A DNA stretch of 64,000 nt. Origin: Microbacterium esteraromaticum. Lineage in GTDB: Bacteria; Actinomycetota; Actinomycetes; Actinomycetales; Microbacteriaceae. The notes under the pieces are model-generated. The model was not told the origin of the DNA and ran no database searches. It worked only from the letters and a program-made list of their open reading frames with translations. Made by a program: the position numbers and the translations under genes. The stretch lies in the NCBI RefSeq assembly GCF_014084045.1, contig NZ_CP043732.1, positions 2,604,001-2,668,000 on the forward strand, in the 5' to 3' direction. This document shows positions 12,152 to 24,388 of the stretch, one piece after another. The first letter of the stretch is position 1. Each line of letters opens with the position of its first letter.

Positions 12152-14917
12152 GTGGCTGCCAAACCACGTGTGCACGAGATCGCCGCTGAACTCGGCGTCG
12201 ACAGCAAGTTCGCACTCGCGAAGCTCAAGGAGCTAGGCGAGTTCGTGAAGAGCCCGTCTTCGACGGTGGAGCCCCCGGTGGCGCGCAAGCTGCGCGCCGC
12301 GATCGAGGCCGACCCCAACGCGAAGCCGGCAGAGAAGACCGAGGCGAAGCCGGCTGCCAAGCCCGCCGCCGCGGCACCCAAGGCGCCGACCCCCGGCCCG
12401 AAGCCGGGACCGGCGAAGAAGGCGGCTCCGGCCGCCCCCGAAGAGGCGCCCGCAGCGCCTGAGGCGCCCGCGGCGACGTCGGGCGCACCCACGCCCGGGC
12501 CCGCCAAGCCCGCAGCGCCCAAGCCCGGCGGCAGCGCCCCCGCTTCCGGCGACAGCGCTCCGAAGCCCGGCGGCGCTCCGAAGCCGGGCGCCCCGCGTCC
12601 CGGCAACAACCCGTTCTCTTCCGCTCAGGGCATGGGCCAGCGTCCCGCCGGTCCCCGCCCTGGCAACAACCCCTTCGCGTCGCAGCAGGGCATGGGCCAG
12701 CGGCCCACGCCGGGCAACATCCCGCGGCCGCAGGCTCCTCGCCCCGGTTCGCCGCGTGTCGGCGCTCCGCGTCCCGGGCGTCCCGGTGGCGCACGCGGTG
12801 GTCAGGGCGGCCGTCCCGGCGCACCGTTCCAGCAGCGTCCCGGCGCTCCCGGCCGTCCCGGCGGTGCCGGTGCGGGTGCGGGTGCTGGCGGCGGCTTCCA
12901 GCGTCCTGGCGGCGGCTTCGCAGGTCGACCCGGCGGTGGCGGCGGTCGTGGGCGCGGCCCCGGCGGCGGTACTGCAGGCGCCTTCGGCAAGGGCGGCGGC
13001 AAGAGCAAGCAGCGCAAGTCGCGTCGCGCGAAGCGTCAGGAATTCGAGATGCGGTCGGCGCCGGTCGTCGGCGGCGTCAACGTCTCCAAGGGCAACGGCG
13101 AGATCATCCGACTGCGCCGCGGCGCATCGATCGCCGACTTCGCCGACAAGCTCGAGGCACTGAACGGCTACACCGTCCAGCCCGGCACCCTGGTCACCAT
13201 CCTCTTCAACCTCGGCGAGATGGCCACAGCCACCGAGTCGCTGGACGAGGCGACGTTCGAGGTGCTCGGCGAGGAGCTGGGCTACAAGATCCAGATGGTC
13301 TCGCCCGAGGACGAGGACAAGGAGCTCCTCGAGGGCTTCGGTCTCGATCTCGAGGCCGAGCTCGAAGCCGAGAGCGAGGACGACCTCGAGATCCGTCCTC
13401 CCGTGGTCACCGTCATGGGTCACGTCGACCACGGTAAGACCCGACTGCTCGACGCGATCCGCCAGACGAATGTCATCGAGGGCGAGGCCGGCGGCATCAC
13501 CCAGCACATCGGTGCTTACCAGATCTGGACCGAGCACGAGGGCATCGACCGTGCGGTCACCTTCATCGACACCCCCGGTCACGAGGCGTTCACCGCCATG
13601 CGTGCCCGTGGTGCTCAGGTGACCGACATCGCGATCCTCGTGGTCGCCGCCGACGACGGCATCATGCCGCAGACGGTCGAGGCGCTGAACCACGCGCAGG
13701 CGGCCGAGGTCCCGATCGTGGTCGCGGTCAACAAGGTCGACAAGCCCGAGGCCAACCCCGCCAAGGTGCGCCAGCAGCTCACCGAGTACGGTCTGGTCGC
13801 AGAGGAGTACGGCGGAGACGTCATGTTCGTCGACGTGTCGGCTCGCAACGGGACGGGCATCCAGGATCTGATCGACGCCGTCCTGCTCACGGCCGACGCC
13901 GGTCTCGACCTGACGGCCAACCCGAACAAGGCAGCCCGTGGTGTCGCCATCGAGGCGAAGCTCGACAAGGGCCGCGGTTCGGTCGCGACCGTGCTGATCC
14001 AGTCCGGAACGCTGCGCGTCGGCGATGCGATCGTCGCCGGAACCGCCTACGGCCGCGTTCGCGCGATGCTCGACGAGAACGGCGAGGCCGTCGCAGAGGC
14101 AGCGCCCTCGCGTCCGGTGCAGGTGCAGGGTCTGAACTCCGTGCCGCGCGCCGGTGACGTCTTCATCGTCACCGAAGAGGACCGCATGGCCCGCCAGATC
14201 GCCGAGAAGCGTGAGGCCGTCGAGCGCAACGCCCTGCTGGCCAAGGCCCGCAAGCGCATCTCGCTCGAGGACTTCACCCGCGCTCTCGAAGAGGGCAAGG
14301 TCGAGACGCTCAACCTCATCATCAAGGGCGACGTGTCCGGTGCCGTCGAGGCGCTCGAGGAGTCGCTGCTCAAGATCGAGGTCGACGACTCGGTGCAGCT
14401 GCGCATCATCCACCGCGGTGTCGGTGCGATCACCGAGTCGGATGTGAACCTGGCGACGATCGACAACGCGATCATCGTCGGCTTCAACGTCCGTCCCGAC
14501 ACGAAGGCCCGCGAGGCGGCCGCCCGCGAGGGCGTCGACGTGCGGTTCTACTCGGTGATCTACTCCGCGATCGACGAGATCGAGAACTCCCTCAAGGGCC
14601 TGCTCAAGCCCGAGTTCGAAGAGGTCCAGTCGGGCGTGGCCGAGATCCGCGAGGTGTTCCGCTCCTCCAAGTTCGGCAACATCGCGGGTGTCATCGTCCG
14701 CTCCGGAACGATCACGCGCAACGCGAAGGCGCGCGTCATCCGCGACGGCGTCGTCATCGCCGATGGCCTTGCCATCGAGTCGCTGCGCCGCTTCAAGGAC
14801 GACGTCACCGAGGTCCGCACCGACTTCGAGGCCGGTATCGGACTCGGCAAGTACAACGACATCCAGATCGGCGACGAGATCGAGACGACCGAGCTCGTCG
14901 AGAAGCCTCGCGGCTGA
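12152..14917 (+). CDS. infB: Translation initiation factor IF-2
   Basis: GTPase that delivers initiator tRNA to the ribosome. 921 residues starting at GTG (ribosome site AGGAGAAT). Domains: IF2-N helix bundle (1-50), a low-complexity Pro/Ala/Gly/Arg linker (about 50-300) that includes a duplicated block around PGNNPF and QGMGQRP, then the G domain with GHVDHGKT at 423-430, [20 protein letters not shown] and NKVDKPEAN, and the IF2 domains II-IV to the C-terminus. The long linker is normal for actinobacterial IF2. A 24-bp palindrome follows the gene. The 726-residue frame on the other strand is a shadow. Confidence 0.97.
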
Positions 14918-22801: not shown

Positions 22802-23081
22802 GTTCCGGCAGTTCGCCTGAGTTCCGGATGTTTGGTGCCCGGGCATCCGGAACTGGGGAGGGTTGCCGGATTTCGGGGGCCGGGGTCGGGTGGGCCTGGG
22901 TTCCGGTGTTCGCCTGAGTTCCGGATGCTGGGTGCCTGGGCGTCCGGATCTGGGGACGGTTGCCGGGTTCCGGGGCCGGGGTCGGGCGGGCCTGGGTTCC
23001 GGTGTTCGCCTGAGTTCCGGATGCCTGGTGCCTGGGCGTCCGGATCTGGGGAGGGTTGCCGGATTCCGGGGCCGACGAGGC
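22802..23081 (+). repeat. REP-like hairpin repeats A-C (downstream side of the DUF559 gene)
   Basis: This gene-free stretch holds three tandem units of 96-98 bases starting at 22802, 22900 and 22996. Each begins GTTCCGG, then TTCGCCTGAGTTCCGGATG, a 10-12 base loop, a complementary (G)CRTCCGGAWCT arm, then GGGGASGGTTGCCGG and a G-rich tail GGGGTCGGG. The last unit runs up to the DUF559 stop codon. All have the same orientation as repeats D-F on the other side of that gene. Not CRISPR: there are no unique spacers. Confidence 0.85.
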
Positions 23082-23915
23082 TCAGGCGGCGAGGTGAAGC
23101 CCCTGGGCGACAGCGCCGAGCATGATGCTCTGGACCAGTTCGGGCTGGAAGAAGACCTGGTAGTAGTCGAAGCGCAGCACCGAGTATCCGCGCAGCCTGA
23201 GGCGTGCATCCGCCTCGATGTCGCGACGACGTGCGGCTGCCGTGCTGTGGTGCTCGAAGCCGTCGAGCTGCACGATCAGCCTGTCGCCGATGACGGCGTC
23301 GACAGGGTGGCCATCGATCCAGACCTGCTGCCGGATGCTGATCCCGATCGCCTTCATCAGCAGCCTGAACTCGGTCTCGACGCCGGAATCCGAGAGTGCA
23401 GTCGCAACGCCGCAGAGGCGCTTCTCGCGGTTGCCTCGCCAGCGCACGCGTTCCAGCACCGCCGGCGCGATGAGTTTCTTGTTCAGTGCGGACTCCCAGA
23501 CCGCGAGTGCAGGACGCGAGTCGAGGCAGCGAGCGACGTGATGCAGCACATTGATCAGCGGGTCGACAGGCGCTCGTTCGTGTACGGGCGCGGGGCCGAT
23601 GGACCAGTGGATTCTGCTGTCCGCGGCCTTCGTCTTACCTGCACCCGGTGGCACGACGAGGTGGACGAGCGGGTCATCAGGGATCCACAGACCCAGTCGT
23701 CTCGCCTGACTGACACACGTCAACCGCCCTCCGGCGGCGATCGCGGCCATGAGCTGCGGGTCGCAATCGTGCGTTGCGATCCACGAGCGCCGCACCCGCG
23801 CGAGCCCGCCGCGGTGAACCGCGGCTGCGATCGCGTGTTTGGTGAAGCCGGCCGCATATATCTCGGAGGTGTGCGCGATGCCGTCACGGCGCGTGAGCCA
23901 TTCAGTGAGGAGCAT
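23082..23915 (-). CDS. AbiEi-like winged-helix/DUF559 (Vsr-like) endonuclease-domain protein
   Basis: 277 residues from ATG 23915. Residues 1-75 look like the winged-helix domain of AbiEi-type antitoxins (WLTRRDGIAHTSEIYAAG, then LARVRRSWI). The C-terminal part, about 176-277, is a DUF559/Vsr-like nuclease fold: Glu180/Glu182, Asp206, LIVQLDGFEHH (213-223, with Gln216 where many members have Glu), RRRDIEADARLRLRGYSVLRF (229-249). From family knowledge such proteins are predicted, not proven, nucleases. It stands alone, with no AbiEii toxin. Three hairpin repeats lie on each side, and two 17-bp direct repeats lie upstream. The frame stays open for 170 more codons upstream, but that part only translates repeats. 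Confidence 0.82.
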   Translation of the reverse strand: MLLTEWLTRRDGIAHTSEIYAAGFTKHAIAAAVHRGGLARVRRSWIATHDCDPQLMAAIAAGGRLTCVSQARRLGLWIPDDPLVHLVVPPGAGKTKAADSRIHWSIGPAPVHERAPVDPLINVLHHVARCLDSRPALAVWESALNKKLIAPAVLERVRWRGNREKRLCGVATALSDSGVETEFRLLMKAIGISIRQQVWIDGHPVDAVIGDRLIVQLDGFEHHSTAAARRRDIEADARLRLRGYSVLRFDYYQVFFQPELVQSIMLGAVAQGLHLAA

Positions 23916-23952
23916 CAGCTCACTCTGCGCCAACGAAGGATGAGGCGCTGCC

Positions 23953-23997
23953 CGGAATCGCCTTCTGTGGAGGGACTGTGCGGAATCGCCCTTTGTG
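23953..23997 (-). promoter_or_regulatory. Direct repeats upstream of the DUF559 gene (possible operator)
   Basis: Two 17-bp repeats, 15 of 17 bases identical, at 23953-23969 and 23981-23997 (plus-strand form CGGAATCGCCYTYTGTG), 28 bp apart centre to centre. They lie 38-82 bases before the ATG, where a promoter should be. A winged-helix autoregulator could bind here; this is inference. Confidence 0.45.
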
Positions 23998-24021
23998 CAG
24001 AGTGATCGGCGGCACTCTCCA

Positions 24022-24388
24022 GATCCGGCAGCTCGCCTGAGATCCGGATGCTTGGCGCGCGGGCACCCGGATCTGGGTACGGTTGCCGGATTCCGGCCAC
24101 CGGGGTCGGGTGCGTCGGGGTTCAGGTGGCCGGAGGGGTGCGCCTCAGTTCCGGTGGTTGGCCTGAGATCCGGATGCCCGGGGCGGGGGCATCCGGATCT
24201 GGGGACATTTGCCGGATTCCGGCGACCGGGGTCGGAGGCGAGCGTCCGGGGTCGGGGCGACCGGGGTCGGGCGAGCCGGACGGGGTGCGCCTCAGTTCCG
24301 ACAGTTCGCCTGAGATCCGGATGCCTTGGCGCCAAGGCATCCGGATCTGGGGACGGTTGCCGGATTCCGGCGACCGACTCGGGGGCGG
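24022..24388 (+). repeat. REP-like hairpin repeats D-F (upstream side of the DUF559 gene)
   Basis: Three further units beginning at 24022, 24148 and 24295, in the same orientation as A-C but with longer and more variable tails (126 and 147 bases between starts). Core: CGCCTGAGATCCGGATGC, loop, GCATCCGGATCTGGGGAC, TTGCCGGATTCCGG, GACCGGGGTCGGG. In unit F the hairpin is a perfect 36-bp palindrome at 24313-24348. Together with the direct repeats at 23953-23997 this fills the gap between the DUF559 gene and ptrB. Confidence 0.85.

Follow-up and report, generated by a model that had tools for sequence, protein, structure and literature searches.

Solitary DUF559 nuclease genes of Microbacterium between locus-specific palindromic units, a possible counterpart of RAYT/REP systems

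Why should a single nuclease gene lie between six copies of one palindrome? The gene in question, encoding a DUF559/Vsr-fold nuclease, is located in a 64,000-nucleotide stretch of the Microbacterium esteraromaticum contig NZ_CP043732.1 (positions 2,604,001 to 2,668,000), here called the window and numbered from its first letter. The original prediction described six repeat copies in one orientation, three downstream and three upstream of the gene, and none elsewhere in the window. Both statements were borne out: the copies were recovered at nhmmer E values of 1e-18 to 3.5e-21 with a model that was itself built from these six, and the next matches had E values of 6.6 or worse. The units are quasi-palindromes of about 70 nt with start-to-start spacings of 97, 96, 1027, 126 and 147. 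Two were folded as single-stranded DNA, and the stronger hairpin, at 24297-24367, had a 16-bp inner stem (z -5.9).

Most such genes carry matching units on both flanks, paralogues differ in their unit, and genomes with units mostly hold the cognate nuclease. With a probability of roughly 0.55, the gene encodes a solitary nuclease to which a cognate palindrome able to disperse belongs. The pair would work in the manner of the REP-associated tyrosine transposases (RAYT) and their repetitive extragenic palindromes (REP), though with an enzyme unrelated to theirs; that it binds, cuts and spreads the unit is a prediction.

A total of 69 loci (6 from the own genome plus sets of 29 and 34, the named relatives in the latter being nearly all Microbacterium) was reduced to 60, termed clade A, by removal of 6 duplicates and 3 truncated loci. 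The flank-pair score of a locus was the local alignment of the 600 nt upstream with the 600 nt downstream in the same orientation. In statistics that ignore kinship among loci, matched flanks had a mean score of 31.9 and mismatched flanks 13.0 (95% 19.0), the own flank ranked first of 60 in 37 loci, and the matched sum was 1914 compared to a maximum of 976 over 10,000 flank re-pairings. Direct scores of 19 or more were found in 43 of the 60 loci and in none of 260 control open reading frames (ORFs; control maximum 18.5). These controls, at least 200 aa long, were called greedily in the window and in 20 evenly spread stretches of 20 kb each, so that some may not be genes. By allowing either orientation at a score of at least 20, pairs were detected in 49/60 DUF559 loci and 1/260 controls. 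Chance or generic intergenic repeats were rejected as an explanation by the control ORFs and the mismatched flanks.

A second clade, typified by the paralogue L030 (L and G numbers are our handles for loci and genomes), gave usable flanks at 28 of 29 loci and a pair in either orientation at 19 of these, 16 of them direct (913 vs 582 in the corresponding comparison); one of these pairs, L245, is doubtful and looks coding. Among 30 PF18741 loci from the phylum, 15 lay in ORFs of more than 1000 aa and 3 were odd-sized or truncated. The remaining 12 genes, from other actinobacterial families, displayed a pair in 6 cases, with direct scores of 17.0-64.0 vs a mismatched 95% level of 14.0 and maximum of 17.5; L160 had the lowest direct score and matched better inverted (28.5). 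It is scarcely credible that the palindromes were spread by other machinery and that DUF559 genes simply occupy gaps that tolerate them, given the locus-specific match of the two flanks, the lack of any such direct pair among the controls and the co-occurrence of units with cognate nucleases reported below; units far from DUF559 genes and unrelated palindromes occupying the same gaps speak for such a passive origin.

The units share a plan. Repeated 8-mers with at most one mismatch were sought in 82 units, namely those of well-paired loci and the six of the window. Direct repeats lay 18 bp apart in 53 units and 19 bp apart in 26, where simple shuffles led one to expect some 3 in each case. Inverted 8-mer matches at odd distances of 41-63 bp were present in 27-43 of the 82 units vs 1.6-3.2 expected. 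A unit thus consists of two forward half-sites followed by two reversed ones. The sequences themselves differ widely (ATCCGG, CAGG and GCCGACAT types; CGTC, which like GTAG is a head tag of REP hairpins, occurs within CAGG-type half-sites), and the same spacing over differing motifs suggests a protein that reads duplex DNA. A strict scan for four half-sites in 584 kb gave 22 matches vs 0.33 per shuffled pass, 17 of them in the window or in stretches picked for repeats or DUF559 genes and 5 in the 20 evenly spread stretches; because of mismatches it misses all six window units. A single match to this geometry (CCGCAGCG), at 12510-12581 of the window and distant from the DUF559 gene, may be a coding-sequence coincidence.

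The genome to which the window belongs (G000; 3.37 Mb, one contig) contains seven DUF559-type genes. A clear repeat pair, with a sequence that differs from gene to gene, flanks four of them; two more show a weaker pair, and one has a palindrome upstream only. Five paralogues are listed in Table 1. Located at 0.65 Mb (L031, as far as 5590, with an uncertain start), the seventh gene falls below the Pfam cut-offs for both DUF559 (16.6 vs 20.6 bits) and MTES_1575 (32.9 vs 38.2 bits) and lies between a pair of GCGTTTCCCATCCG palindromes (L031 4467-4545 and 5641-5720, score 32.0). The GCGTTTCCCATCCG word is also found in lone palindromes around two unrelated genes (L025 8000-8115 and 9178-9230). A single repeat family common to all DUF559 genes was rejected, as the best E value of the window family at L026-L030 was 2.5 and each has its own palindrome. 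Downstream of the DUF559 gene at 0.34 Mb, at a distance of about 1.2 kb, three tandem 119-nt repeats were also observed (L029 7470-7811; G000 ~339.5-339.8 kb); they do not form a flanking pair.

Cognate units also occur away from their gene. At least four further clusters of the window family are present in G000: around an MFS gene (L022), between convergent MFS and DedA-like genes (L023), on either flank of a TetR gene plus neighbour (L024), and as a single copy (L025). None adjoins another detected DUF559 gene of this genome. Profile searches of the 584 kb revealed lone copies of the L026 unit at L031 and L107, of the L027 unit at L024 (two) and L104, and of the L030 unit at L023 (two); the copy at L031 lies 1.2 kb from the seventh gene, which has different units. 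BLAST placed L030-type units at no fewer than five further sites of the own genome. Among 13 hand-picked lone units of the own genome, 11 (scores 20.5-48.5) placed the expected own nuclease first or second of 88 loci; some of the 13 had been found through similarity to their own family, which leaves the ranking against relatives as the one informative result. Lone units from different families tend to be close neighbours, a few kb apart at most (L024 2509-2724 and 5450-7670; L023 7743-8018 and 5857-6476).

In 149 genomes of the genus, searched with the best 5-6 candidates per genome scored so that unit counts are lower bounds, ATCCGG units (E<=1e-8) were detected only in the three with the closest nucleases (100, 82 and 69% identity), a clade cut made after the results were seen, and in each of the three also away from the gene. 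One such site is common to G000 and G076 (L025, L190), and some lone units are therefore inherited. Relaxing the threshold to E<=1e-4 added seven genomes, of which four were inspected: the matches in G068, G055 and G009 look like chance and were set aside as low-complexity or coding, and the fourth, G104, is treated below. Those in G067, G085 and G086, 41-50 bases long and with no adjoining DUF559 match, were also set aside. L030-type units (E<=1e-3) were present in 14/149 genomes, 12 of which have the clade nuclease (E<=1e-60), compared to 48 of the 135 without units (Fisher p 3.7e-4, with E cut-offs chosen after the results were seen). A repeat spread genome-wide without enrichment near DUF559 genes would have spoken against the original prediction. 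Half of this holds: units are found at other sites too, but DUF559 genes show a strong enrichment of pairs.

Unit similarity follows protein identity, a relation that the original prediction had proposed as a check (Mantel rho 0.389, 0/5000 permutations). This holds for 40 of the 60 clade A loci, selected by score >=20 and length >=50 and excluding L035, and shared ancestry contributes to the values. In clade A the signal is carried by the N-terminal 63% of the protein (partial 0.377) and not by the nuclease part (0.053). The interpretation in the original prediction is thus supported in part, and its core analogy with RAYT/REP is borne out: units are particular to their own nuclease, have cognate copies away from the gene and track the protein sequence.

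The tracking of the unit by the N-terminal part in clade A, the AbiEi-like character of that part and a constant 18-19 bp half-site spacing that suits a protein on duplex DNA would also fit an operator. Here the AbiEi-like protein would repress its own gene at the upstream unit, the downstream unit would serve as terminator or second operator, lone units would form a small regulon and the nuclease would act elsewhere. Some lone units of the window family do precede the start of a gene (L022 6316-6686 and 8806-9081; L024 7297-7667), but others are between convergent genes (S9-PFK, proC-trkA, MFS-DedA), which are poor places for operators. Such a role does not require the downstream copy to match the upstream one, and the nuclease residues are invariant; we consider it unlikely.

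The AlphaFold2 model of the window protein had a predicted local distance difference test (pLDDT) value of 94. Residues E188, D214, D226, H231 and D240 are invariant among homologues and presumably correspond to the E, D, H and D active-site residues of the EDxHD motif; the fold itself matches. The original assignment of an AbiEi-like domain joined to a DUF559 (Vsr-like) nuclease was confirmed: DUF559 passes the Pfam cut-off (32.3 vs 20.6 bits), and the N-terminal half fits the AbiEi structure (PDB 6y8q), with AbiEi_4 remaining below its cut-off (13.8 vs 25 bits). Nothing beyond DUF559, MTES_1575 and the weak AbiEi_4 was found in Pfam, nor was a known transposase domain among them, and NCBIfam holds no family for the protein. 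No match was found in plasmids and phages. A PDB sequence match to a collagen IV fusion was dismissed as residue-pattern noise.

By structure the nuclease domain is nearest to the homing endonuclease I-Bth0305I (PDB 3r3p), which ranks third in a PDB sequence search (E 0.0054) and, according to a review (PMC3943268), forms a dimer on a target site close to 60 bp long. The L026 protein also weakly matches the PADLOC HEase model (E 6e-4). A free-standing homing endonuclease would cut a solo unit as its target and be copied in by repair, giving unit-gene-unit, and would not multiply units. The gap between the S9 peptidase and phosphofructokinase (PFK) genes is in this respect suggestive, being short, solo or occupied among relatives. 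A match to S9 or PFK is carried by 44 of the 60 clade A loci, which are thus taken to lie in this gap. Out of 58 matches to the gap, 30 were studied: six have a matching nuclease, two of these in opposite orientation (L129, L131); 13, three of them with a solo unit by eye (L126, L132, L138), lack a nuclease match and have PFK at most ~300 nt from the S9 stop; five have PFK more than 1 kb away and no query match; and six show no PFK in the stretch examined. The gene is accordingly mostly an old resident that is at times absent or replaced. The proC-trkA gap (genes identified by reading) has an L026-type unit in the own genome, and the unit of G005 ranks its own nuclease second of 88; in other relatives this gap measures 13 or 32 nt or holds other palindromes (by eye) or other genes. 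Homing seems rather improbable, since the clade A gene mostly stays at a single site, homing alone leaves lone units in several other places unexplained, and presence/absence pairs with exact edges were not found. In the S9-PFK gap of L117, L118, L122, L128, L135, L137, L141 and L144, other palindromes (e.g. GTCCCACTTCGTGCAG repeats) and apparent ORF starts unmatched by the DUF559 queries were noticed by eye, possibly representing more distant nuclease families that have other units.

The original prediction also offered a defence element whose repeats mark self DNA. In such an element the nuclease would be directed at foreign DNA, with units that label or tether the cell's own. Apart from the AbiEi-like N-terminus, with weak matches to PADLOC AbiEi models, this gained no support. 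The window gene indeed lacks a toxin partner, as first stated: by reading of translations its neighbours are the PFK and S9 peptidase genes, with no AbiEii nucleotidyltransferase toxin gene among them, in a survey that did not search systematically for defence neighbours. Lone cognate units and the 18-19 bp spacing are unexplained by defence, which we regard as very improbable.

For the cognate-palindrome reading, the AbiEi-like N-terminal region would most likely bind the half-sites and the Vsr-fold domain would cut inside or beside the unit. Repair of the cut by recombination between units might copy or homogenise them, or might delete the gene, leaving a solo unit, or put it back at one. 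A wider and more tentative proposal is that DUF559/Vsr-fold nucleases of Actinomycetota make and recognise a large class of locus-specific four-half-site palindromes, each paralogue cutting its own unit. Repair-driven recombination would then spread and homogenise units and let the gene leave or enter solo units, as a convergent RAYT/REP equivalent whose specificity may easily re-evolve through the AbiEi-like N-terminal region.

Several observations weigh against the reading of a cognate, dispersible palindrome. The other window unit that was folded, 22997-23066, forms no significant hairpin (z -1.2). Orthologues without repeats at the locus, an outcome adverse to the original prediction, are a minority: 11 of 60 loci have no detectable pair, and the remainder are paired, L035 scoring through low-complexity sequence. 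Among the 49 paired loci the direct score was higher in 34 and the inverted in 14, with one tie; as the units are near-palindromes, direct orientation is a tendency and not a rule. With 44 of 60 loci at one site the loci lack independence, and mobility of the gene seems low there; neither a target duplication nor a fresh insertion was seen, target-site duplication not having been searched for specifically. In the second clade (17 of 28 loci, L245 excluded as coding-like) the contrast between N-terminal and nuclease parts is small (0.177 vs 0.147). G104 holds a real-looking solo ATCCGG unit with no nuclease at E<=1e-60, and 48 of the 60 genomes with an L030-clade nuclease show no L030-type unit, which is ascribed to unit divergence. 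Two of the 13 lone units (L096 and L097) have background scores and match no known nuclease. These two (L096 14664-14747 and L097 6261-6342; G000 ~234.7 and 386.3 kb) form one palindrome family (GCCGACACCCCCAGGTA) of four-half-site geometry without a nuclease among the 88 loci, perhaps an orphan family or units of another enzyme.

The features are given in Table 1. The start of the window gene is the ATG common to homologues, and the searches used 23082-23939, eight codons longer. The tandem 28-nt copies are a possible promoter or operator. TGCACA/TCCACA-like words, seen by eye, recur between the upstream unit and the start codon of several DUF559 genes (window 23942-24010, L028, L030) and are perhaps a shared promoter or operator.

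Table 1. Features of the window and flanks of the five paralogues in the own genome.
Feature	Position	Strand	Remarks
Palindromic unit 1, downstream	22804..22872	+	nhmmer E 3.5e-21
Palindromic unit 2, downstream	22901..22970	+	nhmmer E 1e-18
Palindromic unit 3, downstream	22997..23066	+	nhmmer E 7.5e-20; ends 15 bases short of the stop codon
DUF559/Vsr-fold nuclease gene, AbiEi-like N-terminal region	23082..23915	-	277 aa; ATG 23915-23913, TGA 23084-23082
Two tandem 28-nt imperfect copies	23942..23997	-	79%; repeat search; between start codon and first upstream unit
Palindromic unit 4, upstream	24024..24093	+	nhmmer E 1.4e-20
Palindromic unit 5, upstream	24150..24219	+	nhmmer E 4e-19
Palindromic unit 6, upstream	24297..24367	+	nhmmer E 4.4e-21
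Flanks of L026	2.06 Mb		81-nt GAACAGGACGG unit; upstream and downstream 86% alike; score 54.0
Flanks of L027	1.07 Mb		GGGAGGAGAAC unit; 18.5 direct, 20.5 inverted, hence close to the control range
Flanks of L028	2.26 Mb		CCCTGCACAC palindrome, upstream only
Flanks of L029	0.34 Mb		short palindrome, inverted copies; score 21.5
Flanks of L030	2.03 Mb		91-nt GCCGACAT unit; score 36.0

To our knowledge, DUF559 proteins are widespread nuclease-fold proteins that are uncharacterised. They gain here a testable candidate substrate, readable from the flanks of each gene. If the reading is true, dispersed palindromes linked to a nuclease have more than one origin, with enzymes that are unrelated, and many natural pairs of protein and recognition site are supplied.

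No literature linking DUF559 or Vsr-like genes to dispersed palindromes was found in titles and abstracts, mostly outside subscription journals. The system differs from I-Bth0305I in its AbiEi-like N-terminus and flanking cognate palindromes, no intron or intein being seen; from the AbiEi antitoxin of type IV AbiE toxin-antitoxin systems in its fused nuclease and the lack of an adjacent AbiEii toxin gene; and from the very short patch repair endonuclease Vsr (PDB 1cw0, 1vsr) in its link to repeats, with no cytosine methyltransferase seen among the immediate neighbours. The likeness to RAYT/REP (PMC2817692, PMC3733652) includes a single nuclease-type gene flanked by palindromes, further cognate copies at other sites, a repeat that co-varies with the protein, a gene that evolves faster than its neighbours and copies often located between convergent genes. 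CGTC-tagged REPs of alphaproteobacteria are reported to have no transposase dedicated to them (PMC3733652). RAYT genes are moreover reported, in PMC2817692, at constant positions while REPs change, and the DUF559 gene likewise looks mostly vertically kept while units disperse. The window protein is not an HUH transposase with a catalytic tyrosine (Y1) of the IS200/IS605 superfamily, as judged by Pfam and by its Vsr/I-Bth0305I nuclease fold. Against the REP hairpin of 20-40 bp, the unit here is ~70-90 nt with half-sites at 18-19 bp, flanks are more often direct than inverted, and copies are far fewer (lower-bound counts) than the usual >100 REPs per genome (PMC2817692, PMC3733652). By function the system could be placed with REP/RAYT; its enzyme is outside the class that defines RAYTs, which is HUH/Y1, and its unit plan differs.
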